The position numbers were made by a program, and so were the translations under genes. The notes beneath the pieces were generated by a model. The model was not told where the DNA came from. It saw nothing but the letters and a program-made list of their open reading frames with translations, and made no database searches. A DNA stretch of 62,316 nt from contig PHFX01000157.1 in assembly GCA_007618135.1 (NCBI GenBank), positions 1-62,316 of the forward strand. Reading direction: 5' to 3'. Positions 19,691-60,060 of this stretch are shown piece by piece (within the stretch, counting starts at the first letter, position 1; each line of letters starts with the position of its first letter). This DNA is from Candidatus Brocadia sp. WS118. Lineage in GTDB: Bacteria; Planctomycetota; Brocadiia; Brocadiales; Brocadiaceae.

Positions 19691-19701
19691 TCTGATGGCT
19701 G

Positions 19702-40837: not shown

Positions 40838-42349
40838 ATGCCAATACCAGAAGCAGATCACTATTTTTGCGAAGCAAAACAGTTTAAACAAAACGGACTT
40901 CATCAGGAAGCAGTTACATCTTATAAAAAAGCCATTGAAACAGACCCGCATTTCATTCCTGCATATTACAACCTAGCCCTGCTTTATCACCAGACACATC
41001 AATTTGACGACGCCGTTATATATTTGAAAAAAGTATTGGCTTTGGACCCCAACGACGCCTCCGCAATGAACAATTTAGGTGTTGTATTGTATGCAATCGA
41101 CAGGTTTCATGAAGCAAAAAAATATTTTCAAGAGGCTATATCACTCGAAAAAGAATATCAGGAAGCCCGGGATAACTTAAAAAAAGTACGCCAAAGATTA
41201 CAGAATACGCAAATACCGTCAACCCATAATCGTCCCATTGATACTAATGATACCCCTGCATTAAAGGTTGGTTTTGTTAGTATCTGGTTTGAACGGGGGC
41301 AATCGTACGTAACAAAAACCTTACGGGATGCTATTGCGCAAGAACATGAGACTTTTGTTTTTGCGAGAACTGGCGGTGTATACGACCAACCTATGTTGCA
41401 AACCGATGGCATGTGGGCGGTCCCGAATTTAACAACATTTCCTGATTATACTATTCCCTGCGAAATATTCGGTAAATGGATAGATAATAATGCTCTCGAT
41501 GTAGTAATTTTTAATGAAGAATACGACTGGAAGCTTGTCGGTTTATGCAAGAAAAAAGGTGTCAAGACAGTAACGTATCTTGACTATTACAAGGATGACT
41601 GGAAACCCTACATGTGCTTGTACGATGCGGTGCTCTGTTCTACGAAACGCACCTTTTTTCTGGTCAAAGATTTTTGCAAAGCCTATTACATTGGGTGGGG
41701 AATTGATACAGAACTTTTTAAACCATCAAATGGTGGAGATAAACATACCTTTTTTCACAATGCAGGATGGTTAGGCATCAATTACCGGAAAATGACGCCT
41801 GCCGTAATCATTGCTTTTGATGCACTTTCCCGGCGTAATCCGGATATAACTTTATTCATTCATGCCCAGGCTGAACTTGAAAGGCTTCCGCCAGAAATTA
41901 TCCCCATCGTCCGTAATAATTCCCGTATTACGTATCACAGAGAAACCGTACCAGCGCCGGGCCTCTATCATAAAGGGAAGATCCTTGTTTTCCCAAGCAA
42001 ACTGGAAGGACTGGGATTGCCTCTCCTGGAAGGCATGTCATGTGGCCTGCCTGCTATAGCAACTGATGCTCCACCCATGAATGAATTTGTTCAGGACGGT
42101 TGCAACGGTATTCTGGTTAAGGTTGCTCAAAAGTTCACCAGACAGGACAATATCGCATTTCCTGAAGAAACGGTAGATATCAATGATTTGATGATAAAGA
42201 TGCAAAAACTAGCAAATGATCAGAAACTCCAAGTCTTTATGTCAGATAATTGCCGAAAATATGCAGTACAGCACTTAAATTTGCGTAAATTAAAAGATAA
42301 GATTCACCGTATTTTGTTTACCCTACCCGTAAACGGAATCACACCTTAG
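40838..42349 (+). CDS. TPR-glycosyltransferase family 1 fusion
   Basis: A 503-residue protein with three N-terminal TPRs (about 5-110) and a GT-B glycosyltransferase (about 135-490) carrying the C-terminal donor-binding region LGLPLLEGMSCGLPAIATDAP. It first makes the TPR module and then a nucleotide-sugar transferase, a layout suited to binding a protein acceptor. It opens a same-strand run of sugar genes that ends at the flagellin cluster. The acceptor is probably flagellin or a surface glycan (inference). Confidence 0.85.
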   Translation: MPIPEADHYFCEAKQFKQNGLHQEAVTSYKKAIETDPHFIPAYYNLALLYHQTHQFDDAVIYLKKVLALDPNDASAMNNLGVVLYAIDRFHEAKKYFQEAISLEKEYQEARDNLKKVRQRLQNTQIPSTHNRPIDTNDTPALKVGFVSIWFERGQSYVTKTLRDAIAQEHETFVFARTGGVYDQPMLQTDGMWAVPNLTTFPDYTIPCEIFGKWIDNNALDVVIFNEEYDWKLVGLCKKKGVKTVTYLDYYKDDWKPYMCLYDAVLCSTKRTFFLVKDFCKAYYIGWGIDTELFKPSNGGDKHTFFHNAGWLGINYRKMTPAVIIAFDALSRRNPDITLFIHAQAELERLPPEIIPIVRNNSRITYHRETVPAPGLYHKGKILVFPSKLEGLGLPLLEGMSCGLPAIATDAPPMNEFVQDGCNGILVKVAQKFTRQDNIAFPEETVDINDLMIKMQKLANDQKLQVFMSDNCRKYAVQHLNLRKLKDKIHRILFTLPVNGITP

Positions 42350-42398
42350 TTTTGATTTTGAACAAGAACCGGTGAAATACGTATCTTATTGTGGAAAT

Positions 42399-43316
42399 AT
42401 GCTCAAAGTTCACTTAGTTGGTGCACAAAAAACAAATTATCCCTGGGGTTTTGAAAACCATGTAATCTCGGCATTAGAGAAGATAGGTTGCAAGGTCATC
42501 AGTACAGACTTCCGCCAAGAACGTCAAAACCTCCAAAAACTCTTGCAACAAGAAGCGGACATTGTTCTTGTTTGTAAAGGTGAATTTATTCCCCCGGAAT
42601 TGATAAAATCGCTTCCTTACCCAACAGCCTTATGGTATTGCGAGCAGATTGGCAATGAAAAAGAGGTAGATTATGAATCATTTCTCAGGAGAAAAGAACT
42701 GGCATACAACGCAACTGCCTTTGATTTTGTTTTTACCCACGACAAGGCAAACAGGGAAATTTACAAAAATATTGGCTGTAAACGCGTGTATTGGTTACCT
42801 TCTGCGGCAGTAAATACCACGGTGCATAAAAAGCTTTGTATTCCCAAAAAACATGATATTACCTTTATTGGTAGTAAAACAAACCGACGCAAAAATATAC
42901 TCACTGCTCTGGAAAAACATTTTAACATTTTTACTCCGAATATATGGGACAGTAAAGAACTAAATAATGTATTTAATGAGTCAAAAATCGTCCTAAATAT
43001 TCATCTTTCTGACCTACCTAATATGGAAACAAGAATTGGCGAGGTACTCGGTTCAGGATCATTTCTCCTTACAGAAGAACTTTCAAGTAAAGATCTTTTT
43101 AACAACAGAGAACACCTTGTCCAATGGAAGAGAGGAGACCTTGACGACCTTACAGATAAAATTAAATATTACCTCCTTCATGACGGTGAAAGAGAAAGAA
43201 TCGCCAATAATGGACATCAATTTGCGGTTGAGCAGCATACCTTCGAGAAGAGAATGGAAGAATTATTGACTTTTGTCGATTTTGGTAAAACCGTAGTGGG
43301 TAATCTTCAAGCATGA
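42399..43316 (+). CDS. CgeB-like glycosyltransferase
   Basis: A 305-residue GT-B protein of the CgeB/DUF3880 type. It opens directly with a strand (MLKVHLVGAQKTNYPWGFEN) and ends with the glycosyltransferase 1-2 segment (NMETRIGEVLGSGSFLLTEEL...). GTG 42372 is an alternative start, nine codons earlier. Its last four bases overlap the next gene, so the two are translationally coupled and may act successively on the same glycan. Confidence 0.8.
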   Translation: MLKVHLVGAQKTNYPWGFENHVISALEKIGCKVISTDFRQERQNLQKLLQQEADIVLVCKGEFIPPELIKSLPYPTALWYCEQIGNEKEVDYESFLRRKELAYNATAFDFVFTHDKANREIYKNIGCKRVYWLPSAAVNTTVHKKLCIPKKHDITFIGSKTNRRKNILTALEKHFNIFTPNIWDSKELNNVFNESKIVLNIHLSDLPNMETRIGEVLGSGSFLLTEELSSKDLFNNREHLVQWKRGDLDDLTDKIKYYLLHDGERERIANNGHQFAVEQHTFEKRMEELLTFVDFGKTVVGNLQA

Positions 43317-44419
43317 AACTAATCAGCTCAAATTCTAAATACAACCATGAGTTAGATACATCTTCATTGAATGAACAAATTCATAAGATACGAGCACATC
43401 TTAGGAAAACAGGCAAGACACGTTCTTCAAAAGACAGACTTCGAGTCTTCGCCGCGGTACATCATGTGAATTGGGAAAAACATGGTTTAGTAGACGGATG
43501 GGCAGAAATTACCGACACAATACACTATGATTGGGGAAATTCTTTTGATCAATATACCCCTGACTGGCATCAAAAAGGTAAGGTGGCTTTCAATAAAGAG
43601 TTACTCCGCCGTGTTGAATTGGTCCATCGCAAGGAACCGATCGATATTTTTTTTTCCTACCTTTCCGGAAGATGGGTTTACCCCGAAACAATACGAACCA
43701 TCAGTAATATGAATCTCATAACAGTCAATATTAGTTTGGATGACACACTAAAATTTCGGGGACTCCCGGAAGCCGGTGGTTTTTCCGGAAATGTTGAAAT
43801 TGCACCAGAATTTGATTTTTGCATCACCTGCCAATCCCAAGAAGACGTTCACAAATATCGTACGGTTGGCGCCCGGGTGCTGTTTTTAGCGCCGGGAGCA
43901 AATCCATATACTTTTTCCCCATTGCCAGTATCACGAGATATTCCCGTTTCTTTTACTGGTCAATGTTACGGTGTACGGCCCCGTATCATCGCCTGGTTAA
44001 AGGACCATGGCATCTCAGTCCAAACGTATGGCAAAGGCTGGCCCTCATCTGAGATATCATCTCAAGATATGAATGTAATTTATTCCCGCTCTCTTATAAA
44101 CCTTGGCTTTGGTTTTATTGGAAACTCCTATGTAACCGGTTTAAAGGGCAGAGATTTTGAAGTTCCTCTGATGGGAGGGCTTTATTTGACAACATATAAT
44201 CAAGGGCTCGAAGATTATTTTACTATCGGAGAAGAAATTGACTGCTACCGGAATGAAGTGGAATTACTTACAAAGCTATACTATTACTTGACACATCCGT
44301 CTCATGCCTTAAAAATTGGCGCATCGGGAAGGATTCGGTGTCTTCGGGATCATACCTGGGTCAACCGATTTAAAACCATCCTTAACATCACTGGTATTTC
44401 AGACCATACTTTAGAATGA
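43313..44419 (+). CDS. CgeB-like glycosyltransferase
   Basis: A 368-residue protein with a GT-B type C-terminal half (RDFEVPLMGGLYLTTYNQGLEDYF and DHTWVNRF), related to but divergent from the gene just upstream. Its ATG overlaps the preceding stop (ATGA). Similar proteins modify spores, surface polysaccharides or flagellin in other bacteria. No membrane segment is seen. The donor sugar cannot be told from sequence. Confidence 0.8.
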   Translation: MKLISSNSKYNHELDTSSLNEQIHKIRAHLRKTGKTRSSKDRLRVFAAVHHVNWEKHGLVDGWAEITDTIHYDWGNSFDQYTPDWHQKGKVAFNKELLRRVELVHRKEPIDIFFSYLSGRWVYPETIRTISNMNLITVNISLDDTLKFRGLPEAGGFSGNVEIAPEFDFCITCQSQEDVHKYRTVGARVLFLAPGANPYTFSPLPVSRDIPVSFTGQCYGVRPRIIAWLKDHGISVQTYGKGWPSSEISSQDMNVIYSRSLINLGFGFIGNSYVTGLKGRDFEVPLMGGLYLTTYNQGLEDYFTIGEEIDCYRNEVELLTKLYYYLTHPSHALKIGASGRIRCLRDHTWVNRFKTILNITGISDHTLE

Positions 44420-44426
44420 GCCATAG

Positions 44427-45590
44427 ATGGCAATAAACTTAAACATTATGCCAAAAATAATGAGTGTGTTCGGCACACGACCAGAAGCCATTAAGCTTGC
44501 ACCGGTAATTAAAGAACTCCGGCAACATTCTGATGCACTAAAAAGCGTTGTAGCAGTTACTGCTCAACACAGACAAATGCTTGACAGCGTTCTGAAAGCC
44601 TTCTCTATTCAACCAGATTACGATCTGGATGTTATGGCTGAAAACCAAGGGCTATCCGATATAACCAGTAAAGTATTAAAAAATATGGAAACAATTTATG
44701 ATAAAGAACGGCCTGATCTGGTCTTGATACAAGGAGACACAACCACGGTGTTTTCAGCCTCATTAGCTGCTTATTATAAACGTATCCCTGTTGGACATAT
44801 TGAAGCCGGATTGCGGTCACGGAATAAATATCATCCTTTCCCGGAAGAGATAAATCGGTGTCTTACCAGTGTTATAGCGAACCTACACTTCGCACCAACT
44901 GATGAAGCAAAAAGCAATTTATTGCGTGAAGGAATTGATGAAGATCGTATTTGTGTAACCGGCAATACGGTTATCGATGCCCTGCTGGATACCGCAAAGC
45001 ATGATTTTACTTTTGAGAATGATTCACTCAACACCATAAAGGGCAAAATGGTATTAATAACAGCACACAGACGGGAAAGCTTCGGAAAACCCTTTATTAA
45101 TATCTGTAACGCAATCCTGACGTTAGCGAAAAAATACCCGGACGTTACTTTTGTGTATCCCGTTCATCCCAATCCAAATGTAAGAAATATTGTATACCAG
45201 ATGTTAGAACACGCGGCAAATATATTACTTATCCAGCCTTTAGAATACGGGCCTTTTGTTCACTTAATGAAACGTGCCTGTATTATTTTAACAGACTCCG
45301 GCGGTATTCAGGAGGAAGCCCCTTCCTTGCATAAACCAGTCCTCATACTTCGTGAGGTAACAGAACGCCCGGAGGCCGTGATGGCTGGATGCGCAAAACT
45401 CGTGGGTACACATCTAAAGACTATTGTCAAAGAAACAGTACGATTGCTAGAAGATCAGAAAGAATATCATCGAATGGCTCATGCTGTAAATCCTTTTGGG
45501 GATGGATGTGCTGCAAAACGCATCGTTAACTTCATTAAAAATAAACTTATCAAAAAACAACGACACCATGCAAATTATGAAATGTGTTAA
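44427..45590 (+). CDS. wecB: UDP-N-acetylglucosamine 2-epimerase
   Basis: A 387-residue epimerase that interconverts UDP-GlcNAc and UDP-ManNAc. It contains SVFGTRPEAIKLAPVI, GDTTTVFSASLAAYY, HIEAGLRS, PEEINR and DSGGIQEEAP, all standard. ATG 44448 would give the usual family N-terminus; no Shine-Dalgarno site decides between the two. In this cluster it would supply a ManNAc-type donor for the neighbouring transferases. Confidence 0.95.
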   Translation: MAINLNIMPKIMSVFGTRPEAIKLAPVIKELRQHSDALKSVVAVTAQHRQMLDSVLKAFSIQPDYDLDVMAENQGLSDITSKVLKNMETIYDKERPDLVLIQGDTTTVFSASLAAYYKRIPVGHIEAGLRSRNKYHPFPEEINRCLTSVIANLHFAPTDEAKSNLLREGIDEDRICVTGNTVIDALLDTAKHDFTFENDSLNTIKGKMVLITAHRRESFGKPFINICNAILTLAKKYPDVTFVYPVHPNPNVRNIVYQMLEHAANILLIQPLEYGPFVHLMKRACIILTDSGGIQEEAPSLHKPVLILREVTERPEAVMAGCAKLVGTHLKTIVKETVRLLEDQKEYHRMAHAVNPFGDGCAAKRIVNFIKNKLIKKQRHHANYEMC

Positions 45591-45602
45591 GGATGAACTG
45601 TT

Positions 45603-46361
45603 ATGACTCAAAGCAACCTGCTGGAAAATCTTAATTATTTAGTACGTCATCTCAAAAGTATAAAATCCCCGATATTGGAGCATCCAAACTTTGCTCAATA
45701 TATATCGGATATTACAGAATACTATAAGGATGCACATGCTGAATCACGCTTGACTTTCTGGCCTTGCCTGGATGATAGAACACACGAAACATTCTTTGAT
45801 AAATATTACTTCTACCAGGATACCTGGGCTGCCCGTAAGATATTTGAAATACATCCAAAACAGGTAACGGACTTAGGGTCTACTGCGCTGCTTGTTGGAA
45901 TCATTTCTCAGTTCGTTCCCACCGTGAGCATTGATATAAGACCTTTACCTGTTTCACTGCCCGGCTTTACCTGTAAGCGTGCCTCTATTACCGACTTGCC
46001 TTTTGAGGCAGGTACCATTGAATTTCTCGGCAGCATGAGTGTTATGGAACATGTTGGGCTTGGGCGCTATGGTGACAAATTAGATGCACAAGGGAGTATC
46101 AATGCCTTTATGGAGGTCTCACGGGTAATCAAGCCCGGCGGACATTTTTTGTTTAGCGTTCCCCTGAGCCATACACCGGGACTGGTATTTAATGCCCACA
46201 GGATCTTTAGCAAACAACAATTTACCTCTTTTTTGCCTAATTTTAGGTTACTTGAAGAACTGTTCCTTTTCCCCGAACCGGGAAGTGAAAAAGACGTGAC
46301 AAAACTTAAGGATTTTCAGTTCTGCGTCTGGTGTGCACACATGGTAAAAATGGACACCTAA
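45603..46361 (+). CDS. DUF268-type SAM-dependent methyltransferase
   Basis: A 252-residue protein with a methyltransferase fold: motif I DLGSTALLVG, acidic strand-2 end SIDIRP, and the family signature VMEHVGLGRYGDKLDAQGS with VIKPGGHFLFSVPL. This DUF268 group sits in surface-glycan loci and likely methylates a sugar. AAGGATG precedes the ATG. It lies 12 bases after wecB, in the same run. Confidence 0.82.
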   Translation: MTQSNLLENLNYLVRHLKSIKSPILEHPNFAQYISDITEYYKDAHAESRLTFWPCLDDRTHETFFDKYYFYQDTWAARKIFEIHPKQVTDLGSTALLVGIISQFVPTVSIDIRPLPVSLPGFTCKRASITDLPFEAGTIEFLGSMSVMEHVGLGRYGDKLDAQGSINAFMEVSRVIKPGGHFLFSVPLSHTPGLVFNAHRIFSKQQFTSFLPNFRLLEELFLFPEPGSEKDVTKLKDFQFCVWCAHMVKMDT

Positions 46362-46428
46362 ATTGTCACATTAGTTTACCGGATATTTATTTTTCATCAG
46401 TAATAACAATAGAATAAATGTAAACACG

Positions 46429-47853
46429 ATGGAAAAATCTCAAAATCAAAGAATTTCGGCATGTCTAATCGTGAAAAATGAGGAAGAACTGCTCCCCAAG
46501 TGTTTAAACAGCATCAAAAATGCAGTCGATGAAATTGTTATTGTCGATACGGGATCTACAGATAACACCGTAACAGTTGCCAAAAATTTCGGCGCTCAAG
46601 TCTATCATCACTCGTGGAATGACAGTTTCAGTGAGGCAAGAAATCATTGCTTAAAATATGCATCGGGTGACTGGATTCTTCAGATAGATGCCGATGAAGA
46701 ACTCGAACAAGCGGATATTACTAAACTGAAAAGTGCCATAAACAGCGCTAATTATAATGCCATTGCAGTAGCAATCCACAGCACTATAAAAGACAGCGAT
46801 CACAAATTCTACAATATTAGAGTTTTCAGGCGCGGCAAGGGTTTCTATAAGGACATTGTCCACGAGCAAGTTGTTATTGACGGAAACCGTCTTTCAACTG
46901 AAATAAGGTTTTACCACCATGGGTATAATCTTGATGAAAACAAAATGAAAATAAAGTGGCAAAATACTACTCGTCTTCTTCAAAAACAAATTGAACAAAA
47001 CAAGTTTAATAGTTTTGCATGGTTCAATCTTATACGGAACTATCGTACACAAGAACTCTTTAACGATGGTATTATTGCAGGAGAAAGAGCCCTCACCATA
47101 TTAACGCCAAACACTTGCCCAACGTATCAAAATACGAGCATCAATATGCATCACTATGCAATGATTAGCTATGAAACTGCTAATTGCCATCTTCACATAT
47201 CATCCACGGAAAAAGCAAAGGAATTGTGTTATCATGCTTTATCGAAGCTAGAAGCGGCTGGAATTGCTCCAGAAAACATTGATATTTTATTCACCCTTGC
47301 CTGTACCTATCTAAAAGAAGGCAGTTATCAAGGAGCAATTCAATATTTTAATCGCTTTTTATCGCTGCAAGAATGGTATCTTAACAACATGAATACGAAT
47401 TCTCTTATGGCTGATACGTTGGGATATAATTACGCAGCACATAATGGCATAGGTTATTGCCTGGGAAATTTAGGACAATGGAAAGTCGCTATAAAATATT
47501 TACAAAAAGCGATAGCTCTTAATCCGAGATATTGCACAGCATACAAGAATCTTGCACTTTGTTACGAAAACACCGGAAATCTTAACCATGCGATTAATAC
47601 CCTATTAAAAATCATTTCAGAAAATATTGCAGATGACACTGTATGGTTAAATCTAGGAGAACTATACATAAGACAAGATGCATATGAGAATGCAATCCCG
47701 TGTTTTGAGAAATATTTATGGGAACATCCTGCTGATAAAAAAACATTACTGAAAATTGCATGGTGTTATGAAAAGCTAGGCCATCTAGAGGCAGCACTGA
47801 TTGGTTATAGATCTGCAGAAGCGTTAAAAGAGCCGGTATGTTTTAAACCGTGA
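46429..47853 (+). CDS. GT2-TPR glycosyltransferase (SunS-like)
   Basis: A 474-residue protein with an N-terminal GT-A domain (about 8-230: SACLIVKNEE, DEIVIVDTGSTDNT, FSEARNH, LQIDADEELE with the metal-binding DxD equivalent) and a C-terminal TPR array (about 270-465). SunS-type enzymes glycosylate proteins, and the TPR part would bind the acceptor. It is one of four GT2-TPR paralogues around the flagellin genes, with flagellin as the likely acceptor (inference). Confidence 0.85.
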   Translation: MEKSQNQRISACLIVKNEEELLPKCLNSIKNAVDEIVIVDTGSTDNTVTVAKNFGAQVYHHSWNDSFSEARNHCLKYASGDWILQIDADEELEQADITKLKSAINSANYNAIAVAIHSTIKDSDHKFYNIRVFRRGKGFYKDIVHEQVVIDGNRLSTEIRFYHHGYNLDENKMKIKWQNTTRLLQKQIEQNKFNSFAWFNLIRNYRTQELFNDGIIAGERALTILTPNTCPTYQNTSINMHHYAMISYETANCHLHISSTEKAKELCYHALSKLEAAGIAPENIDILFTLACTYLKEGSYQGAIQYFNRFLSLQEWYLNNMNTNSLMADTLGYNYAAHNGIGYCLGNLGQWKVAIKYLQKAIALNPRYCTAYKNLALCYENTGNLNHAINTLLKIISENIADDTVWLNLGELYIRQDAYENAIPCFEKYLWEHPADKKTLLKIAWCYEKLGHLEAALIGYRSAEALKEPVCFKP

Positions 47854-47927
47854 GACACTACCGTGGGAATTCATGCAAATCCATCTTATTTAAAACAATA
47901 GCAATAGAGAAACTTCAATAACAACCC

Positions 47928-49679
47928 ATGAAGGACAAAGGACATCAGACAGTACAAAATAATGGTCAGCCAACACTCTCCGCATGTATGATCGTCAAGA
48001 ACGAGGAGAGATTTTTATCACAGTGCCTTACTAGTATTAAAGGTGCCGTGGACGAGATTGTTATTGTTGATACCGGTTCCTCAGATAAGACAGTTGAAAT
48101 TGCACGTTCCTTTGATGCAAACGTCTATTACCACCCTTGGAATAATAGCTTTAGTGAGGCGCGAAATCATTCCTTGAACTACGCAACAGGCGATTGGATA
48201 CTGCAAATTGATGCTGATGAAACACTTGAACAGGGAGACATCCCGCTTTTGCACAAATTATTAAACAATGACTCATATAATGTTATTTTTGTGGCAATAT
48301 ATAATGAACTCCCCGGTGGACGCGCAAAACATTACTTCCAAAGAATATTCCGGAGGGGCAAAGCACATTTCGAGGGAATTGTACACAATCAACTTATATT
48401 TGAGGGAAAGGCACTTCAATCTGAAATACGATTCTATCATTATGGATATAATTTGTCCGCGAATGAAATGCAAAAAAAATATAAACGGACGGGAGATCTT
48501 TTAAGGCAACAACTTGCAAAAAGTCCTGACAATTTATTTATTATGGCAAACCTTATTCGAAATTACAGGAACGAATATAATTATGATGAAGTCATAGCTT
48601 TGGCAGAAAATGGATTAAAGATATCCACGTCACAAACAGATCTCGTTTCAAAAAATCAACGGCAAAGAATGTCCATTGATCTGGTACACGCCCTTATAAA
48701 TACGAACCAGGTAGACAGAGCTGAAATGGTGTGCAAGGAAGCGCTCATGGAAACTCCTGACTCTTTTGATATTTTATTAGTCCGTGGCGAAGTATTAATG
48801 AAAAAAGGCGTCTTCCGCGACGCCCTTATTTGTTTTAAAAAATATCTCATTTTAAAAGAAAAGGAAAATAAGGAACCGACATTTTTTTTGCTCTCTTCTG
48901 ATTTTTATCAATATGAACATACCGTATATAACCATATTGGTGAATGCTATAAATACCTTGGGCTGATAGATGATGCTATCGTGGCATACAAAAAAGCCAT
49001 CGAATTAAATGGCAATGATCCGCACTATTACTCAAATCTCATTCACCTTTATATTTCACAAAATCGATTAACCGATGCAAAAGATTTAGTTTTTGCTACC
49101 ACGAAACTAGGAATTGCCAATCATCTAATATATTTATTACTGGGCAAAATATATGTTGCACAAGGGAAATTCCAAGACGCTATTAACGCCTGCAAACAAT
49201 CTATTGAAATTGATATCACAAATATACCTGCACACACATTTTTGATAAACCTCTTAATACAAGTAAATCTGCTTGACGAAGCCGAAGAATCATTAAAAAG
49301 AATTCTTTCTTTGTATCCAAATGAATTTCAATTTAGATGTCTTAGGGAAAGGATTAAGTATAAAGAGGGCAACAAGGAAAGTCCTCTCTCTTTTGTCCGG
49401 AATATCCTGTTGACTAACCCATCAGATCAAAACATATACCTAGAACTAGGAGACCTCTGCATGGAAATGGAGCAGTACGCTGCTGCAATTGAAGTGTTGG
49501 AAAGGCGGCTTAAAAGCTCCCCCATTGCTGATGCAAAAGTTGTTGCCAACATTGCTGTTTGTTACGCAAAACAAGGCAAATTGGAATCTGCCCTGGTCGG
49601 ATTCCAGACAGCCCTTAAACTTGATCCTAATTGTAGTTGCGCTTTACAAAATCTCGCTGCATTGAACACTAAACTATAA
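47928..49679 (+). CDS. GT2-TPR glycosyltransferase
   Basis: A 583-residue paralogue of the preceding gene: SACMIVKNEERF, DEIVIVDTGSSDKT, FSEARNH and LQIDADETLE in the GT-A domain, followed by a longer TPR array (about eight repeats to the C-terminus). It is very close to the next gene in both domains, pointing to recent duplication. No signal peptide, so it acts in the cytoplasm. Confidence 0.85.
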   Translation: MKDKGHQTVQNNGQPTLSACMIVKNEERFLSQCLTSIKGAVDEIVIVDTGSSDKTVEIARSFDANVYYHPWNNSFSEARNHSLNYATGDWILQIDADETLEQGDIPLLHKLLNNDSYNVIFVAIYNELPGGRAKHYFQRIFRRGKAHFEGIVHNQLIFEGKALQSEIRFYHYGYNLSANEMQKKYKRTGDLLRQQLAKSPDNLFIMANLIRNYRNEYNYDEVIALAENGLKISTSQTDLVSKNQRQRMSIDLVHALINTNQVDRAEMVCKEALMETPDSFDILLVRGEVLMKKGVFRDALICFKKYLILKEKENKEPTFFLLSSDFYQYEHTVYNHIGECYKYLGLIDDAIVAYKKAIELNGNDPHYYSNLIHLYISQNRLTDAKDLVFATTKLGIANHLIYLLLGKIYVAQGKFQDAINACKQSIEIDITNIPAHTFLINLLIQVNLLDEAEESLKRILSLYPNEFQFRCLRERIKYKEGNKESPLSFVRNILLTNPSDQNIYLELGDLCMEMEQYAAAIEVLERRLKSSPIADAKVVANIAVCYAKQGKLESALVGFQTALKLDPNCSCALQNLAALNTKL

Positions 49680-51560: not shown

Positions 51561-51743
51561 ACCAGTGAACTAGGTAATATATACTTCCACTGATGAATAC
51601 CCTAACAAATACACACCGGTATGATTTTTTCTGTCAAATATCAAAGGAATCAACAACCGCCATGCCAAGCTATTTTGAGCAATAGATAGAATGCTAAAAA
51701 GAATTCTCGGTATCTCTTTAATACCACATTTTTTAAAAATTAT

Positions 51744-51770
51744 TAAACTTCTCAAAACTCTTTCCGATAA
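51744..51770 (+). promoter_or_regulatory. Sigma-28 (FliA) type promoter for flagellin 1
   Basis: TAAACTTC (51744-51751), an 11-base spacer and TCCGATAA (51763-51770) closely match the flagellar sigma-28 consensus TAAAGTTT-N11-GCCGATAA. The start would be near 51777, leaving a leader of about 128 bases. A 10-base palindrome TGACTAGTCA (51804-51813) lies in that leader. Confidence 0.78.
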
Positions 51771-51904
51771 TTTCGTCAGGTACCGTAAAAGTTTTCAAAG
51801 ACTTGACTAGTCAGTCTGAGAATATGTGTGTTTTATATTAAATAAACTGGTTTCTTCTCGTTATGGAATGCGAGAAAAACGCAAGAACAAGGAGGTTTAA
51901 GAGT

Positions 51905-52831
51905 ATGAGTACAAGAATTAACACAAATATTAATGCTTTAAATGCCCTGAGGTCTTTGACTGATATAAATAATAAAATGTCTATTAGTCAATTACGTCTG
52001 GCTACAGGTAAAAGGATTAACAATTCAGCCGACGATGCGGCTGGCTATACTATTGCGAAAAAGATGAATGTGCGTGCAGAAGGTCTTGGGCAGGCATTAA
52101 GCAATATCGGCTCAGCCAAAAACCTGGTAACCGTAGCAGAAGGCCATTTAAATAATATTGTAGATATTCTGACACAGATGAAGACAAAAGCCATTCAGGC
52201 AGCTGACGATTCACTTGGTACATCAGAACGTACTGCTATTAAGTCTGAACTTGCTTCTTTATCTAATCAAATCAATATTGAAGTTACGCAAGCCACATGG
52301 AATTCCAAATCCATATTTAATGGTACAAGTTCGAGTAACGCTACTGCCGGTAACGTCCTATTCAAATTCCAAATTGGCTCAGGAAATAGTTCAACAAACG
52401 ATTTGTTACAGTTTAATTTACTTAAGACGGGTAATGTTAGCCTTGAAAGCGGTAATACGGGTTTTAAAGCTGCTCAGTTGAGACTTGATTCAAGTGGCGC
52501 TACTCGACTCAGCGGCAATACCCTTGCTGGTTCGCTTTTAGGTTCTTCAGCATCAGCTCACGTTTTAATGGGTAGGGTTGATAATGCTATTGCTGATGTA
52601 TCAGAGGCATTGAGTTACATAGGTTCTGTGGTAAATAGGCTGACCTATCAGGAAGCTAGCTTGACAGTAGCCAAGACAAATACTGAGGCAGCTAGGAGTA
52701 GAATTGAAGATGCTGATATGGCTTTTGAACAGTTACAATATACGAAGTTTCAGATATTGCAACAGACGGCCAGTTCAATGCTTGCACAAGCAAATGCTGG
52801 ACCTCAATCCATATTGAGTCTTTTCAGATAA
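51905..52831 (+). CDS. fliC: Flagellin
   Basis: A 308-residue flagellin with conserved N-terminal (STRINTNINALNALRSL, LRLATGKRINNSADDAAGY) and C-terminal (ARSRIEDADMAFEQLQY, LQQTASSMLAQANAGPQSIL SLFR) coiled-coil parts and only a short Ser/Thr/Asn/Gly-rich central region (about 150-210), giving many candidate O-glycosylation sites. ATG 51905 follows AAGGAGG by eight bases. It is almost identical to the second flagellin on the opposite strand. A sigma-28 promoter and a strong terminator frame it. Confidence 0.96.
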   Translation: MSTRINTNINALNALRSLTDINNKMSISQLRLATGKRINNSADDAAGYTIAKKMNVRAEGLGQALSNIGSAKNLVTVAEGHLNNIVDILTQMKTKAIQAADDSLGTSERTAIKSELASLSNQINIEVTQATWNSKSIFNGTSSSNATAGNVLFKFQIGSGNSSTNDLLQFNLLKTGNVSLESGNTGFKAAQLRLDSSGATRLSGNTLAGSLLGSSASAHVLMGRVDNAIADVSEALSYIGSVVNRLTYQEASLTVAKTNTEAARSRIEDADMAFEQLQYTKFQILQQTASSMLAQANAGPQSILSLFR

Positions 52832-52844
52832 GAAAAAGTTCACC

Positions 52845-52874
52845 CTGGGGATGGTAGAAAAATACCATCCCCAG
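52845..52874 (+). terminator. Terminator after flagellin 1
   Basis: A 12-base perfect stem CTGGGGATGGTA/TACCATCCCCAG with a 6-base loop is followed by TTTGTATTT. It would let flagellin be made in excess over the downstream cap genes. Confidence 0.9.
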
Positions 52875-52921
52875 TTTGTATTTAGTATTTTCAGTAAACA
52901 CCCTTCCGAAAGGTTTGCAAC

Positions 52922-54703
52922 ATGGCCATATCATCGTCTATCACATCCGCATTTAACGCTAACGCAGGTCTTAACTTGCTGATTAATCAGTTTATGGCTT
53001 TAGAACAAAGGCCGTTGACGTCGTTAAATACAAAAAAGGCAAGCATCAACACCACCATAGGCATTTATAGTGATTTAAAATCAAAGCTTGCAGATCTTCT
53101 GACCGCAGCAAGAGATTTGTCCAGCACTAGTACAAGTTCCGTATATAATTCAAGAACATCAAGCTCCAGTGATGAAACAAAACTAACGGCATCTGCCGGT
53201 ACAAGCGCTGCAGTAGGAACGTTTCAGATTCGCATTAAACAATTAGCCACTGGCGCATCAATCCAGAGTACCGGAGAACTCATAACCAAAGCATCTGCTA
53301 AAAGTACATCAAAAGTTGCTCCAGGTTCAGGCACTATCGATGTAACAAAAAGTTTTGCTAATGCAGGTTTTACTAATAACCCAGATGGCACAATAACTAT
53401 CAATAGTCAAACTTTTACTCTATCTGATTACAGTACGGTACAATCTTTTTTAGACGCAGTCAATAATGATGCTACTGCAAATAGTAATATTTATTATAAT
53501 AAAACAGAAGATAAATTCTATATTGAACAAAAGAGTGGAAATACGGATCTAATTATATCAGAGACAGGATCTAATCCATTATTTTCAGAGATAAAAATAA
53601 CTGCCGGCACACATACTGGCAATGGGAATACCGGCATTCAAAGTGACGTACTGTTAAGTAAGGCTAATTTCGATGGTATATTAACAAGCACTACAAGCGG
53701 TAGCTTTAAAATTAATGGTATAACTCTTACCTATAATACCAATACAGACACGCTAGATAGCGTTCTTTCCAAAATAAACAGTTCTACGGCAAATGCAAAT
53801 GCATTCTATGATAGTTCTTTGGATAAAGTTGTTATCAAGTCAAAAAGCACCGGAAGTACAGATACGATCACACTCTCTGATGTAAGTGGCAACTTATTAA
53901 GCACATTGAATCTGTCTGGTGCTACTGCTACTAATGGTGCGGACTCACTATTTACGATCAACAGTACAAATTCTGCAGACCAGATAACGAAAAGTACAAA
54001 TGCATTTACCATTAATGGGATTACCTATAATCTGAAAAATACCAACGTCACAAACTACACAGATTCAACCTATACAACCATTACAATTACTCAAGATACG
54101 AGTGCTATTCAATCCAAAATTACCAATTTTCTTGATAAATTCAATTCGGCAACAGAATATATGAAAACTAAATCTAATATCGATCCTATTACAAAAATAA
54201 GAGGCCCTCTTGCAGGAAACGCAACATTTATATCACTTTCAAATCAATTATTTCAAAAACTGTCTGAACAAATAGCAGGAATTGCTGGTGGTAATCCTGA
54301 TTATCTTAGTGATATTGGTATTACCATTGATAAAAGCTTAAAGGCAAGTTTATCTGATACAACGAAATTCAACAATGCCATCACCTCAAATTCTAAGGCG
54401 GTTGAAGACCTGTTTAATTCGACAAATGGTGTTGCCAATAAAATCGACACCCTCTTAAAACCATTTGTAGAGAGCTCGTCTGTTTCCAGAGAATCAATTA
54501 TCGATGAAACGAAAAAAATATTCAGCAGACAAATAGAAAACATTGATACGAGAATAAACCGGATGGAAGAGCGGTTAAAAATAAAAGAAAATCAATATCG
54601 ACAACAGTTGTATACTATGCAAGGTCTTTTGAATAGTGCAGTACTACAAGGCAGTCAAATTATATCGTTTACAAACTCAATATTTAGTAATAATACATTC
54701 TAA
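52922..54703 (+). CDS. fliD: Flagellar hook-associated protein 2 (filament cap)
   Basis: A 593-residue cap protein. The FliD N-terminal domain (about 10-110, LNLLINQFMALEQRPL), a Ser/Thr/Asn-rich variable centre, and the C-terminal domain (about 380-580, coiled coil IDTRINRMEERLKIKENQYRQQ) are all recognisable. It caps the growing filament and folds flagellin. AAAGG lies before the ATG. It is 90 bases downstream of flagellin. Confidence 0.93.
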   Translation: MAISSSITSAFNANAGLNLLINQFMALEQRPLTSLNTKKASINTTIGIYSDLKSKLADLLTAARDLSSTSTSSVYNSRTSSSSDETKLTASAGTSAAVGTFQIRIKQLATGASIQSTGELITKASAKSTSKVAPGSGTIDVTKSFANAGFTNNPDGTITINSQTFTLSDYSTVQSFLDAVNNDATANSNIYYNKTEDKFYIEQKSGNTDLIISETGSNPLFSEIKITAGTHTGNGNTGIQSDVLLSKANFDGILTSTTSGSFKINGITLTYNTNTDTLDSVLSKINSSTANANAFYDSSLDKVVIKSKSTGSTDTITLSDVSGNLLSTLNLSGATATNGADSLFTINSTNSADQITKSTNAFTINGITYNLKNTNVTNYTDSTYTTITITQDTSAIQSKITNFLDKFNSATEYMKTKSNIDPITKIRGPLAGNATFISLSNQLFQKLSEQIAGIAGGNPDYLSDIGITIDKSLKASLSDTTKFNNAITSNSKAVEDLFNSTNGVANKIDTLLKPFVESSSVSRESIIDETKKIFSRQIENIDTRINRMEERLKIKENQYRQQLYTMQGLLNSAVLQGSQIISFTNSIFSNNTF

Positions 54704-54785
54704 GGTTAAGGTAATTCCAGTAACAAATTAAGCCTAGCATTTTACAATTTATTTTACGCTGACTCTGATATTAAATTCATTTAAA

Positions 54786-55217
54786 ATGGATAAAAAGAAA
54801 ATAATAGACAGGCTTTCTACACTCGCTTTAGATAACAAGGCACTCTTCACTCATACCATGGAGATTAAAAAGGCACTGTTGGGTGATTTCAGTGAAAATA
54901 TATTAGAAGATTCATTTAAAAAAAGAGGGTTGCTGCTTGAAAAAATGAATTCCTCAATAAAAAATTTTGACTCTATTAAGGAATTCTGTAATTGTACCGA
55001 TAATACTGGGTGGAATTCAACAAACGAGACTCTCCAACAAATTAAACAGGAATTAAATGCTACAATCGTACTAAATGAGGAAATTACATCCTTGATAAAA
55101 CAGCAAATTAACGACATTATTTCTTATTTGGAAAAAATGCAAGAGGGTAGACATTTCATTAACACTTTAAAAAAGCATCTTAGCCCCACGCCCTCTTTGA
55201 TTGATATTTTTGGATAG
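54786..55217 (+). CDS. FlgN/FliT-like flagellar chaperone (candidate)
   Basis: A 143-residue all-helical acidic protein with no clear family signature. Position between fliD and fliS, size, and a helical coiled-coil profile suggest a FliT- or FlgN-type export chaperone. A C-terminal SLIDIFG resembles the disordered tail of such proteins. I cannot tell from sequence which substrate it guards. No Shine-Dalgarno site is evident. Confidence 0.6.
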   Translation: MDKKKIIDRLSTLALDNKALFTHTMEIKKALLGDFSENILEDSFKKRGLLLEKMNSSIKNFDSIKEFCNCTDNTGWNSTNETLQQIKQELNATIVLNEEITSLIKQQINDIISYLEKMQEGRHFINTLKKHLSPTPSLIDIFG

Positions 55218-55268
55218 TCAATAATTGAGTGTAGATTTTTAACATCTTTTAAAAGGAGTCATAAACTT

Positions 55269-55610
55269 ATGCTTGCTGCTAGAAAAATGAGTAATGCCTA
55301 TTTGGAACAGGAAATCATGACATTAAATCCTCTTCAGTTACTAATCAAAGCTTATGATGCTGGAATTACCGCATGCAATCGTAAAGACGAACCTAAAGCA
55401 AGTGCAGTTCTTTCTGAATTAATAGATTCTCTCAACTTTGACTACGCTGAAATCTCCAATTCCTTGTTTAGATTGTATGAGTATTGTATGAGAGAAGTTA
55501 AGTCTGGTAATTTTGAAGTTACCTTAAAAATCTTAAAAGAATTACGAGAAACATGGATTCAAGCACAAGAAAATATCCGGGCAGAGGTGCCGCAACCTAA
55601 CAATTTATAG
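55269..55610 (+). CDS. fliS: Flagellin export chaperone FliS
   Basis: A 113-residue helical protein with the FliS pattern NAYLEQEIMTLNPLQLLIKAYDAGITAC and a C-terminal helix region LKILKELRETWIQA. It binds the C-terminus of flagellin in the cytoplasm and keeps it export-ready. AAAAGGAG lies eight bases before the ATG. It sits between the chaperone-like gene and flaG. Confidence 0.9.
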   Translation: MLAARKMSNAYLEQEIMTLNPLQLLIKAYDAGITACNRKDEPKASAVLSELIDSLNFDYAEISNSLFRLYEYCMREVKSGNFEVTLKILKELRETWIQAQENIRAEVPQPNNL

Positions 55611-55669
55611 AATTAATAATCTGTAAATCGTAATTGTTGAACAGTTGCGATGATTTTGGGAATGAATAT

Positions 55670-56080
55670 ATGGAAACACATGATATTCATAATTTGAATA
55701 CCTATAACAATTACCATACCTATTACAATAAAAATGCATCAATTAAGAATACGAATAATGCAGAAAAAGGTATTACTATATCAGAAATTAAGAAAGACCT
55801 ACCAATTAATAATATTAATATCATGGATAGACAGACTCAACATCTGAAATTACCAATTTACTATACACCACATCTCTTGGAAACAGAAATTACTATGTCT
55901 GTTGAAAAGGATTTGAATATTATTGTCACCACAGTAAAAAATAAAGATACAGAGAAGGTTATCAGACAAATCCCCGATAAAGAAATCATTGAAAGATTAA
56001 AATACTTAAAAAAATACTCAAAACAACTTATTTCCCAAAAGGAAAACGACCAGTCTATCATTGATACTAAAGGCTTTTAA
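55670..56080 (+). CDS. flaG: FlaG-family protein
   Basis: A 136-residue protein with the FlaG domain in its C-terminal half (LNIIVTTVKNKDTEKVIRQIPDKEIIERLKYL). The N-terminal half is Asn/Tyr-rich and low in complexity. FlaG proteins affect filament length. ATG 55670 is preferred over TTG 55634. It ends the plus-strand flagellar run. Confidence 0.82.
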   Translation: METHDIHNLNTYNNYHTYYNKNASIKNTNNAEKGITISEIKKDLPINNINIMDRQTQHLKLPIYYTPHLLETEITMSVEKDLNIIVTTVKNKDTEKVIRQIPDKEIIERLKYLKKYSKQLISQKENDQSIIDTKGF

Positions 56081-56184
56081 AATTTTTTAACCCAAAACCT
56101 GTTGTACAAGGATTATCATTTTATTTGAGCGGGTACCGGGTGGGATTGATAACCTTATTTGCCTAGAATTAACTTCAGTCATCA

Positions 56185-57624
56185 TCACAAGTTGTTGTTC
56201 TTTTGACTTTTTAGACTTTGAAATTTCTCTAACCAATCTTTAGCTATAATATTCCAATCATAAAGCAGTTCGGTTCGTTGCCGCGCTCCATGACTTAATC
56301 GTTGCCATGTCTCTTCATTCTTAACAAGGGTAACTACGGTTTCAATAAAGCGATGTTCAAATTCAGCAGTGTGAGGATCGCCAGGAATAAGATATCCGCT
56401 CACACCATCTATCACAGTTTCTGACAAAGCGGCCAGTGTGCTAGCAACAACTGGAGTTCCCGATGCCTGCGCTTCGATTGCAGCAATACATGATGTTTCG
56501 TAAAAAGTACAAGGATATAACATTAAGCGGGCAACTGACAGGTCTTTCGCAAGGATTTCTTTAGGCAAACTCCCGCGCATATACACTCCAGGTTGTTGTG
56601 CCAGCCGACTAATCTGACTTTCCAGTCTATCACTAGATAATTGATAGGTATAGATATGTAACTCAGCATCAGGAATTCTTTGACGGATGCGTGGAAATAG
56701 GCTCAATAAGACATCCAGGCCTCGATTGAGACGACTCATATAAACAAAACGATTGAGATTTCTCTTTTCACCAGGCTTGAACATCATTAGGTCCACGCCA
56801 TTTCGTGTTAAATAGAACCGATTGTTAGGAATTTTAAAATGATGCAACCATTCATCCATTTGCCAGTGACTAATAGCAAAAATACTGTCAATAGGTAGGC
56901 GGGTAGGATCTTCACCTTTTAAGAACGATACGTTAATGTGATCGTGTATCCAAAGGATGCGTGTTTGTGCTTCCAAAGCGATTTTGAATGGACGCATTGA
57001 ACGAGACGAAATAAACACTGGCAGTGAATGTTGCTGACGATAGATATGGAAATCAACAAGATTTCCATAATATACGCCATTATAATCACCTGGTTTGTCA
57101 CAATTACAAAAGACGCGAACCCGAAGCCCATGTGCAGCAAGTGCACGCGCTATATAAACAAGAGCGCTTTCACTACCACCAAGACCCTTTTCTTCTATGG
57201 TTCTACCATGAAAGGGGACACCTCCAGTGTAGAATACAATGTCGGCCTTGTCTCCTGCCTCAGAATAACCCATTGCAGATGAAATAATTCTTATGCCTTC
57301 GTAGGCGGCAGTAAATTCAACGTCACGAATTATTGTTTCACGAAATGACTGATAAGCCTCAGTAAAACGCCCAGCTTTCAAGTGTAATTGTCCCAGATAG
57401 TAGTGGGGATTAGCGAAAGTGGGATCAGCATTAATACTGCGATATAACAAATTTATCGCTTGATTTCTTCGGCCAAGCAAGTCAACAACAACTGCAGCAT
57501 TGAAAAGTGCCCTGGGTTCTTCAGGATAGATATCAAGCATCTTTTCAAAAAAAGACGAAGCTTGATGAAGCATTCCCTGTTTGGTTAGATTAATACCTTG
57601 TTGAAGAAGCGTTTCGATAGTCAC
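56185..57624 (-). CDS. TPR-glycosyltransferase family 1 fusion
   Basis: A 479-residue protein with N-terminal TPRs (about 1-110) and a GT-B transferase domain with FYTGGVPFHGRTIEEKGLGGSE, YMSRLNRGLDVL and YETSCIAAIEAQASGTPVVAST. GTG 57624 is preferred; the longer frame to 57732 would run over the preceding gene. It mirrors the TPR-GT1 at 40838, giving each flagellin one such gene, and is probably co-transcribed with the GT2-TPR gene upstream. Confidence 0.83.
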   Translation of the reverse strand: MTIETLLQQGINLTKQGMLHQASSFFEKMLDIYPEEPRALFNAAVVVDLLGRRNQAINLLYRSINADPTFANPHYYLGQLHLKAGRFTEAYQSFRETIIRDVEFTAAYEGIRIISSAMGYSEAGDKADIVFYTGGVPFHGRTIEEKGLGGSESALVYIARALAAHGLRVRVFCNCDKPGDYNGVYYGNLVDFHIYRQQHSLPVFISSRSMRPFKIALEAQTRILWIHDHINVSFLKGEDPTRLPIDSIFAISHWQMDEWLHHFKIPNNRFYLTRNGVDLMMFKPGEKRNLNRFVYMSRLNRGLDVLLSLFPRIRQRIPDAELHIYTYQLSSDRLESQISRLAQQPGVYMRGSLPKEILAKDLSVARLMLYPCTFYETSCIAAIEAQASGTPVVASTLAALSETVIDGVSGYLIPGDPHTAEFEHRFIETVVTLVKNEETWQRLSHGARQRTELLYDWNIIAKDWLEKFQSLKSQKNNNL

Positions 57625-57685
57625 TTTTATTTTTGTCCATTTATAATTTAAACAAAACGAACAATATTTTGAAATACCTTGCTTA

Positions 57686-58894
57686 CTATTTATTAATGTC
57701 AGTGCAACATAATGCAAGGCCGTCACTAGCATTCTCTAGCAACGGGTCGATAGCAAGAGCAAGTTCATACATCTTTTTAGCCTCTTTTGTATCTCCCTGC
57801 AAATAACGGCAATTTCCCAAAAATACATAAGGCAATGCCGCAGCAGGATTGTACTCTACTGATCGGGCAAAGTCTTTTTCTGCATCCAGTATATTACCTA
57901 ATGCACTGCGGCAACTTCCCAACTCCAAATAAATCTGAGCTAAATTCAAATCGATACTCGGAAACGAACCTGTCTCACCCTTAACGATTTGTATTGCATT
58001 TTCAAGATGAAAAATTGCCGTTTTATATTGTTTGTTATCAGCAGCCACGGTCGCAAGTATGTAAGCAGGTAAAGGGTTTACAGGATCATAAGATGAAACC
58101 ATCTGGGCATGATAAGTAGCTTCTGTAATATTATCTAATGCTAAATAAAGTTTCGCAAGGCATAAATGAACCTGTCCTATAAGCTCACGCTTGATACTTC
58201 CATTGTCCAAATCAAGAGCATGTTGCAACGAACGGATTGCAGCATCCTTCTTTCCAAGCTCATAGTAGGTTATCCCTAAATTAAAATATATAAAGGAATC
58301 ATTTTGCACAATCTCTAATTCATTTAACAGGTAGCGGAGATTCCGTTCCGCACGGCAACGTTTTTTTTCTTCGTTAATAGCATAGGCCCAATGATAAATA
58401 ACGATGTCTGTACGTAATACCTTACCACCCAATCGCTCGATGGAAGGTAAAATCTGTTCATGTATTTTACCTTTAAAACGGACATCTTTATGACGACGAA
58501 AGATACGACAGTATTCGCTGTAGTAGGCAGTAGCAATATTGTTGCTTTGTTGAGGGATACACTGACGTACGGTAATACCCATGATATCTTTTCTGTTTAT
58601 TACACTACGAATTTTATTAGCATTCAATCTGTCTATAGTTTCATCTGCATCAATATAAAGGATCCATTCACCACGTGCATAACTGAGGGATTTATTGCGC
58701 GCAGCGGAAAAGTCCTCTATCCATGGAACTTGATGCACTTGTGCACTATATTTTCTTGCTATTTTCATAGTTTCGTCAGTTGAGCCTGTATCTACAACTA
58801 TAATTTCGTCTACAAAAGTACTGAGACTTTTTAAACAATGTGGTAGAAGAGCAGCTTCGTTTTTGACAATAAGGCAAGCTGATAGTTGTATCAT
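57686..58894 (-). CDS. GT2-TPR glycosyltransferase
   Basis: A 402-residue protein: GT-A domain with SACLIVKNEAAL, DEIIVVDTGSTDET, FSAARNKSL and LYIDADETID, then TPRs (about 200-395). It is the fourth GT2-TPR paralogue of the island, more distant from the other three. It lies 239 bases downstream of the second flagellin on the same strand. Confidence 0.85.
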   Translation of the reverse strand: MIQLSACLIVKNEAALLPHCLKSLSTFVDEIIVVDTGSTDETMKIARKYSAQVHQVPWIEDFSAARNKSLSYARGEWILYIDADETIDRLNANKIRSVINRKDIMGITVRQCIPQQSNNIATAYYSEYCRIFRRHKDVRFKGKIHEQILPSIERLGGKVLRTDIVIYHWAYAINEEKKRCRAERNLRYLLNELEIVQNDSFIYFNLGITYYELGKKDAAIRSLQHALDLDNGSIKRELIGQVHLCLAKLYLALDNITEATYHAQMVSSYDPVNPLPAYILATVAADNKQYKTAIFHLENAIQIVKGETGSFPSIDLNLAQIYLELGSCRSALGNILDAEKDFARSVEYNPAAALPYVFLGNCRYLQGDTKEAKKMYELALAIDPLLENASDGLALCCTDINK

Positions 58895-59060
58895 ATAAAT
58901 TCTATTTTCAACCCTTAATTAATCTAATGCTATCGATTACAAAAGGAATTTCGGCTTATAATACTTGGGTAATTCCTTTTGCTATCTCTTATTTTGATTC
59001 AAGAAAATCCACCATAGAATAATTTGTATTTATTGCATTTTCGTCAATAATGCATAAAAC

Positions 59061-59104
59061 ATCCCCCTTTATCCTCATACGATTAAAAGAGGATAAAGGG
59101 GGAT
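59061..59104 (-). terminator. Terminator after flagellin 2
   Basis: A 16-base perfect stem (ATCCCCCTTTATCCTC with its complement) has a 12-base loop, 30 bases past the flagellin stop. On the minus strand it is followed by GTTTTATG, a weak T-run. Confidence 0.75.
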
Positions 59105-59133
59105 TAATCTTTGCTCTCGTAAAAAAAATAATT

Positions 59134-60060
59134 CTACCTGAACAGACTGAGAATGGCTTGTGGGCCTGAATTTGCTTGTGCAAGCATTGCACTGGCCGTT
59201 TGTTGCAATATCTGATACTTCGCATATTGTAACTGTTCATAAGCCATATCTGCGTCTTCAATTCTGCTCCTGGCTGCCTCAGTATTTGTCTTGGCTACCG
59301 TCAAACTAGCTTCTTGATAGGTCAGCCTATTTACTACAGCACCTATGTAACTCAATGCCTCTGATGCATCAGCAATAGCATTGTCTAGTCTACCCATCAA
59401 TAAGTGTATAGATGCAGCAGAGCCTAAAAGCGAACCAGCAAGGGTATTACCGCTGAGTCGAGTAGCACCACTTGAATCAAGTCTTAACTGAGCAGATTTA
59501 AAACCTGTATTACCGCTTTCAAGGCTAACATTGCCCGTCGAGAGTAAATTAAACTGTAACAAATCGTTTGTTGAACTATTTCCTGAGCCAATTTGGAATT
59601 TGAATAAGACGTTGCCGGCGGTGGCATTACTCGAAGCAGTTCCGCTAAAGATGTTTTTGGAATTCCATGTGGCTTGTGTAACTTCAATATTGATTTGATT
59701 AGACAAAGAAGCTAGTTCAGCCTTAATAGCAGTACGTTCTGATGTACCAAGTGAATCATCCGCTGCCTGAATGGCTTTTGTCTTCATCTGTGTAAGAATA
59801 TCTACAATATTATTTAAATGCCCTTCTGCTACGGTTACTAGGTTTTTGGCTGACCCGATATTGCTTAATGCCTGTCCAAGACCTTCTGCACGGGCATTCA
59901 TCTTTTTCGCAATACTATAACCTGCAGCATCGTCAGCGGCATTATTAATCCTTTTACCTGTAGCCAAGCGTAGTTGTGCAACAGACATTCGATTATTTAT
60001 ATCAGTCAATGACCGCAGCGCATTTAAGGCACCAATATTAGTGTTTATCCTTGTACTCAT
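59134..60060 (-). CDS. fliC: Flagellin (second copy)
   Basis: A 308-residue flagellin almost identical to the copy at 51905-52831, with differences scattered over the whole length, e.g. NSKNIFSGTASS in the centre and SAASIHLLMGRLDN near the C-terminus. The ribosome site AAGGAGGTTTAGAGT is the same type as in copy one. No sigma-28-like promoter is visible in the 100 bases upstream, so expression control probably differs. Confidence 0.96.
   Translation of the reverse strand: MSTRINTNIGALNALRSLTDINNRMSVAQLRLATGKRINNAADDAAGYSIAKKMNARAEGLGQALSNIGSAKNLVTVAEGHLNNIVDILTQMKTKAIQAADDSLGTSERTAIKAELASLSNQINIEVTQATWNSKNIFSGTASSNATAGNVLFKFQIGSGNSSTNDLLQFNLLSTGNVSLESGNTGFKSAQLRLDSSGATRLSGNTLAGSLLGSAASIHLLMGRLDNAIADASEALSYIGAVVNRLTYQEASLTVAKTNTEAARSRIEDADMAYEQLQYAKYQILQQTASAMLAQANSGPQAILSLFR

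Follow-up and report, generated by a model that had tools for sequence, protein, structure and literature searches.

Why should six glycosyltransferases, each with an array of tetratricopeptide repeats (TPRs) on the same chain, be encoded around two flagellin genes of an anammox planctomycete? The genes in question lie at positions 40838 to 60060 of the window, by which we mean the whole stretch of 62,316 nucleotides analyzed here, from contig PHFX01000157.1 of Candidatus Brocadia sp. WS118. According to our analysis, they very likely constitute an island for the O-glycosylation of flagellin in a motile anammox bacterium, in which soluble, cytoplasmic TPR transferases would act on flagellin before its export and conserved priming enzymes would be accompanied by an exchangeable sugar cassette. 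Four of the transferases, GT2a to GT2d, carry a GT2 domain followed by TPRs, while the other two, GT1a and GT1b, carry N-terminal TPRs followed by a GT-B transferase. The role of the island in flagellin glycosylation is well supported by synteny, by co-inheritance with flagellin and by homology to a known flagellin transferase, and the same lines of evidence strongly favor the preliminary description of this DNA, which had proposed that TPR transferases make up an island for glycosylating flagellin.

The association with flagellin was examined in the genome itself (5.04 Mb in 299 contigs) and in 32 other genomes of the family Brocadiaceae (n = 33). Genes encoding GT2+TPR chains were found in 21 of the 22 flagellin-bearing genomes and in none of the 11 flagellin-less ones (Fisher p 6e-8); counted by genus, the same co-occurrence is 6 of 6 versus 0 of 5 (p 0.002), and this is the safer value, since genomes of one family are not independent and the p value by genome overstates the evidence. 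Within the order, 75 of 93 GT2+TPR copies have a flagellin gene no more than 12 kb away, the median distance being 2.3 kb. The possibility, raised in the preliminary description, that the same transferases consistently stand away from flagellin genes in related genomes is thus not borne out, one lineage (genus g11) having moved GT2a and GT2c. In one relative (G005) about 1 Mb separates two halves of the island, each of which retains a flagellin gene, and a 'Candidatus Brocadia sp.' locus in named records has the flagellin-GT2d pair. Every transferase of the island, as well as WecB and the methyltransferase described below, is under purifying selection, with ratios of nonsynonymous to synonymous substitution of about 0.08 to 0.23 (GT1a, 0.17 to 0.22).

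The nearest solved natural glycosyltransferase by sequence is GmaR of Listeria monocytogenes (PDB 22ao), matched by GT2b at 1.5e-34 (profile, 2.9e-66) and by GT2d at 6.5e-33, while the C-terminal TPR part of GmaR (7x9r) matches positions 152 to 396 of the profile at 1.8e-20. GmaR attaches N-acetylglucosamine (GlcNAc) to flagellin with its N-terminal GT2 domain, which is followed by TPR, linker and antirepressor domains, and its TPR part has been proposed by its authors to recognize flagellin (PMC9638930). GT2a to GT2d share with it the order of an N-terminal GT2 domain of about 180 residues and subsequent TPRs. GmaR differs in its linker and C-terminal antirepressor domain and in being a thermosensor; the island, in turn, has four copies, long TPR arrays in GT2b and GT2c, no sign of an antirepressor as judged by chain length (GT2a, GT2d) and by the GT2b model, and extra extending enzymes. 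The DADE motif is intact in all four GT2 chains. In the AlphaFold model of GT2b (predicted local distance difference test, 91.5; predicted template modeling score, 0.84), a GT-A domain at residues 16 to 172 precedes a superhelix of 22 helices at residues 178 to 582, and by fold the model is closest to SunS (Z 27.0; range for the SunS/ThuS structures 7msn, 7msp, and 7msk, 24.7 to 27.0). SunS and ThuS also place helical repeats after a GT-A domain, but their acceptor is different, namely a bacteriocin cysteine, and despite the best fold match we rejected a SunS-type peptide S-glycosyltransferase for GT2a to GT2d, which reach 84 to 112 bits, under the TIGR04195 cut-off of 350. In a tree of the GT2 domains, GT2a and GT2b/c are sister groups, the split between GT2b and GT2c is a later duplication, and GT2d forms a separate lineage. 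GmaR-type GT2+TPR chains occur in the genome only at this island; therefore, their clustering is not due to chance. Five other places match the GT2 part, of which four encode GT2 without TPRs in the open reading frame (ORF) and the fifth, on contig C113, a different TPR chain.

The preliminary description had taken FlmG of Caulobacter as the precedent. FlmG of Caulobacter crescentus transfers pseudaminic acid, and its TPR part, which precedes a GT-B domain, was shown to bind flagellin (PMC7591256). The analogy fits GT1a and GT1b in domain order (N-terminal TPRs, C-terminal GT-B), E-x7-E being intact in both. It does not extend to the four GT2 chains, which have the reverse order and the different GT-A fold, and for which GmaR is nearest; judging from these comparisons, GmaR should replace FlmG as the precedent for four of the six chains. 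Since GT1a and GT1b follow the FlmG order and the GT2 chains do not, both known orders of TPR transferases stand side by side in one island.

The gene content of the island, in window positions, is as follows.

40838 to 42349, plus strand: GT1a, with N-terminal TPRs (about residues 15 to 120), a GT-B transferase and E-x7-E at residues 390 to 398 (Pfam, motif scan)
42372 to 43316, plus strand: CgeB-like transferase 1 (Pfam PF13524)
43313 to 44419, plus strand: CgeB-like transferase 2 (PF13524), its start overlapping the stop of CgeB-like transferase 1 by 4 bases
44427 to 45590, plus strand: WecB, non-hydrolyzing UDP-GlcNAc 2-epimerase (Epimerase_2, TIGR00236, PDB 1vgv)
45603 to 46361, plus strand: S-adenosylmethionine (SAM) methyltransferase (DUF268/Methyltransf_11, Pfam)
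46429 to 47853, plus strand: GT2a, GT2 (GT-A) domain, then TPRs; DADE at residue 87
47928 to 49679, plus strand: GT2b, GT2 domain 16 to 172, TPR superhelix 178 to 582; DADE at residue 95
49797 to 51560, plus strand: GT2c, GT2 domain and TPRs; 63% identity with GT2b
51905 to 52831, plus strand: flagellin 1, 308 amino acids (aa)
52922 to 54703, plus strand: FliD, filament cap (Pfam)
54786 to 55217, plus strand: 143-aa helical protein, probably a FliT/FlgN-like export chaperone (fold and position)
55269 to 55610, plus strand: FliS, flagellin export chaperone (Pfam)
55634 to 56080, plus strand: FlaG (Pfam)
56185 to 57732, minus strand: GT1b, N-terminal TPRs and GT-B transferase; true start probably near 57624
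57686 to 58894, minus strand: GT2d, GT2 domain and TPRs; lineage apart from GT2a to GT2c
59134 to 60060, minus strand: flagellin 2, 308 aa; 92% identity with flagellin 1

Pfam and NCBIfam assignments (TPR with Glycos_transf_2 in GT2a to GT2d; TPR with Glyco_trans_1_4/Glycos_transf_1 in GT1a and GT1b) and ORF positions agree with the earlier inventory of six TPR-glycosyltransferases (four GT2, two GT1), wecB, two CgeB-like genes and a methyltransferase around two flagellins. Read from 60060 down to 56185, the minus strand carries flagellin 2, GT2d and GT1b, and the gene order FliC2-GT2d-GT1b / FlaG-FliS-ORF-FliD-FliC1-GT2c-(GT2b)-GT2a is shared by the majority of flagellated relatives. For flagellin 1, the start is at 51905 (MSTRIN..., with AAGGAGG upstream), 14 codons after the listed ORF start at 51863. 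The start of GT1b is probably about 36 codons inside 57732, since homologues align only from residue 31 to 38 or so and the segment upstream overlaps GT2d.

The two flagellins had been called nearly identical; at 92% identity in protein and 89% in DNA, that wording is slightly too strong. Similarly, the flagellin center, described as rich in Ser, Thr and Asn, is enriched in Ser and Thr (28% at residues 141 to 215 versus 14 to 17% elsewhere), while Asn shows no particular enrichment there. The 143-aa ORF between fliD and fliS matches no Pfam family above cut-off, and Foldseek alone returned nothing significant for its model; with VIA-align the model falls near 5gna, FlgN (2fup), and FliT (3a7m) at Z 10 to 11, a likeness that is not unique, as syntaxins and Smac are close by. 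It is kept in that position in flagellated Brocadiaceae, at 27 to 76% identity, and on fold and position it is deemed probably a FliT/FlgN-like export chaperone.

Which sugars the island would handle is suggested by the genes beyond GT2a. WecB scores 503.8 bits with TIGR00236 (cut-off, 210) and matches PDB 1vgv at 4.8e-125, while the NeuC model stays below its cut-off on the same ORF; for the methyltransferase, no relative was found in the PDB by sequence at E 1. Across related islands, the flagellin-proximal transferases are constant and the genes beyond GT2a are variable: WecB occurs without the methyltransferase in G002, G004, and G005, the methyltransferase without WecB in G008, and both in the window, whereas the cassettes of G001, G025, and G028 encode other proteins in their place (B12/radical-SAM, transketolase-like, GHMP-kinase, nucleotidyltransferase or DegT aminotransferase), and the G009 cassette has a GT2-radical-SAM fusion and a sugar epimerase. 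One related island (L158:3873-6506) encodes a single 878-aa chain made up of a GT2 domain and a B12-binding radical-SAM domain. Judged by gene content, the sugar differs among strains, and methylated N-acetylmannosamine (ManNAc) is therefore a plausible guess for the strain of the window only, unproven because WecB and the methyltransferase are gained and lost independently in related islands.

Flagellin might instead be modified, as by FlmG, with a CMP-activated nonulosonic acid whose synthesis is encoded at another site of the genome, rather than with derivatives of UDP-N-acetylhexosamine or ManNAc. On contig C180 (about 10000 to 22200; L199 to L201, L205) there are two strong NeuB-type synthase genes and, near them, a distant UDP-GlcNAc 2-epimerase relative; this is probably a nonulosonic-acid locus, and it does not lie beside flagellin. 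Together with the FlmG domain order of GT1a and GT1b (PMC7591256), these genes lend the alternative some weight, yet they stand outside the island, the island WecB is of the non-hydrolyzing type and the GT2 chains resemble a GlcNAc transferase, so that we consider it unlikely. Maf was also considered as the flagellin transferase here: the genome gave no match to PF01973 or PF20157, with controls too weak for proof of absence (for PF20157, no control genome matched either).

The same genome contains a second locus with a TPR-bearing transferase, so that uniqueness is limited to the GmaR-type chains. Found via a weak GT2 match, C113:39309-43934 encodes a 1542-aa chain that combines one CgeB-like and four GT2 domains with a TPR arm at its C terminus. 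Its neighbors are a 1445-aa CgeB/GT2/methyltransferase chain, a DegT aminotransferase and a GHMP kinase, and beyond those B12-radical-SAM, TPP-dependent and epimerase genes and then flgL, flgK, and flgI. The whole set occupies a single strand and spans about 30 kb (39309 to 70000; L206, L212, L213), so that the sugar genes and the 1542-aa chain stand downstream of flgI-flgK-flgL. In G005 the chain (78%) comes immediately after GT1a of the flagellin island and flgL lies another 17 kb on, and in G001, G007, and G009 the flagellin island, the chain or parts of it, and flgL lie on one contig within 65 kb. Because it is joined to the flagellin island in these four relatives, the C113 locus is very probably part of the same flagellin-glycosylation system, and with its five-transferase chain it is the most interesting addition to it. 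Caution is advised by G010, a 99%-complete genome of the same genus, which has the 1542-aa chain and a flgL-like gene (contig C2) and neither flagellin nor GT2+TPR genes; either the whole island has been lost there in one piece or the assembly lacks it. Over 116 residues, GT1a's N-terminal arm shares 47% identity with the C-terminal arm of the 1542-aa chain (98 bits), the next-best arm among the compared TPR ORFs reaching 72 bits, and in a whole-genome search with GT1a at E 1e-20 the 1542-aa chain was the only other match. Such similar arms on unrelated catalytic parts are suggestive of a shared docking partner, though TPRs resemble one another anyway.

From gene content, domain order, motifs, selection, co-inheritance and homology, we infer the substrate, the order of steps, the contact between TPRs and flagellin, the acceptor residues and the sugars as follows. 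The TPR arms would bind newly made flagellin in the cytoplasm, perhaps with FliS or in competition with it. Priming of Ser and Thr residues in the exposed central segment (141 to 215) with a first sugar, probably an N-acetylhexosamine, would most likely fall to the GmaR-like GT2+TPR chains, and the TPR+GT-B chains, the CgeB-like enzymes and the 1542-aa chain would extend the glycan. WecB would supply UDP-ManNAc and the methyltransferase would decorate the glycan, after which FliS and the FliT-like protein would pass flagellin and FliD to export. While the flagellin-proximal transferases are fixed, the cassette of WecB, methyltransferase, CgeB-like genes and GT1a would be swapped between strains and thereby set the outer sugars. 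No strongly hydrophobic segment was detected in any island protein, and no membrane segment is evident.

A further-reaching and rather doubtful version, which we put forward tentatively, is a protein-docked assembly line. Every TPR transferase, including the 1542-aa chain, would dock by its own arm on flagellin or its chaperone complex; a long glycan would grow step by step on the protein in the cytoplasm, with no lipid carrier involved; the arm would be a module moved between unrelated transferases; and strains would change the outer sugars by exchanging cassettes beside fixed priming enzymes.

Several observations weigh against flagellin glycosylation as the role of the island. When 84,980 species genomes were searched for members of the GT2+TPR family, 79 loci emerged, and flagellin or FliD lies within the stretch examined (about 10 kb) in 36 of them, from at least eight phyla; the remaining 43, mostly from Bacillota, have neither nearby. 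On account of these 43, the architecture by itself does not reveal the substrate, flagellin or other, so that flagellin linkage does most of the work. Within the order, three genomes of genus g11 (G020, G025, and G028) have GT2a and GT2c at a distance from flagellin (89 kb in the complete genome G020), the GT2 cassette of G021 is 2.1 Mb from flagellin, that of G008 and G012 is on another contig, and G019, an 86%-complete draft, has flagellin and no GT2+TPR gene that we could find. In the literature searched, we found no report of anammox flagellin glycosylation, and for the island members in anammox bacteria the enzymatic role would follow from homology and context. In favor of a flagellin role, flagellin linkage clusters on the tree: it takes 15 changes, whereas none of 200 shuffles took fewer than 18 (mean, 26). 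Among the relatives without a flagellin gene nearby, four loci of Bacillota (L089, L140, L144, and L145; Paenibacillus, Thalassobacillus) have three GT2+TPR genes in a row, accompanied by a short GT2 gene on the other strand.

These 43 loci could be taken to mean that the transferases make another surface glycan, such as that of an S-layer glycoprotein, lipopolysaccharide or exopolysaccharide, and adjoin flagellin through shared regulation or chance; anammox surface proteins are glycosylated, an extracellular glycoprotein having been described (PMC10202920), and polysaccharide loci often encode WecB, CgeB-like and GT4-type enzymes. However, all 11 flagellin-less Brocadiaceae are without GT2+TPR genes while flagellated ones retain them, no flippase, polymerase or oligosaccharyltransferase, the membrane and lipid-carrier genes, was recognized among the island genes, and the nearest solved relative glycosylates flagellin, which leaves this explanation improbable. 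GmaR is bifunctional as transferase and flagellar regulator (PMC9638930, PMC3150276), and at least one GT2+TPR chain might likewise mainly regulate flagellar expression, with glycosylation secondary. This is hardly credible, since GmaR bears its antirepressor as a separate C-terminal domain, for which GT2a and GT2d are too short and in place of which the GT2b model is TPR-like to the end (the domain itself was not searched directly), and since none of the four GT2 chains has lost its catalytic motif.

As a flagellin-glycosylation island, the locus belongs to a kind of system that is already known, and its multiplicity and mixture of architectures are new. Flagellin islands of Clostridium and Geobacillus likewise combine flagellin genes, several transferases and strain-variable sugar genes (PMC13317340, PMC5109656), but they are from Bacillota, often have Maf, and differ in gene order and cassette; a 2026 survey of Clostridium already named the GT2+TPR chains of such islands candidate transferases (PMC13317340). 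In the Type A locus of Clostridioides difficile (CD0240 to CD0244), the initial transferase adds GlcNAc to flagellin Ser/Thr and its neighbors, including a methyltransferase, decorate it, much as proposed here, with the differences of a phospho-threonine decoration and of one initial transferase (PMC4441256). If our interpretation is true, anammox planctomycetes join the bacteria whose flagellin is glycosylated by soluble TPR transferases, and enzymes of the GmaR and FlmG orders work together on the same flagellins. The island would then offer a natural set for studying how arms choose substrates, with several transferases, one presumed target and arms on unrelated catalytic domains, and cassette exchange beside a constant priming set would explain flagellar surface variation in these bacteria.

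In the spacer upstream of GT1a, at 40492 to 40570, there is a short palindromic element (ATTGCGAGCAACAGCGAAGCAATTC ...) which looks like a dispersed repeat; it is the sole such match in the window, where 0.05 would be expected by chance.

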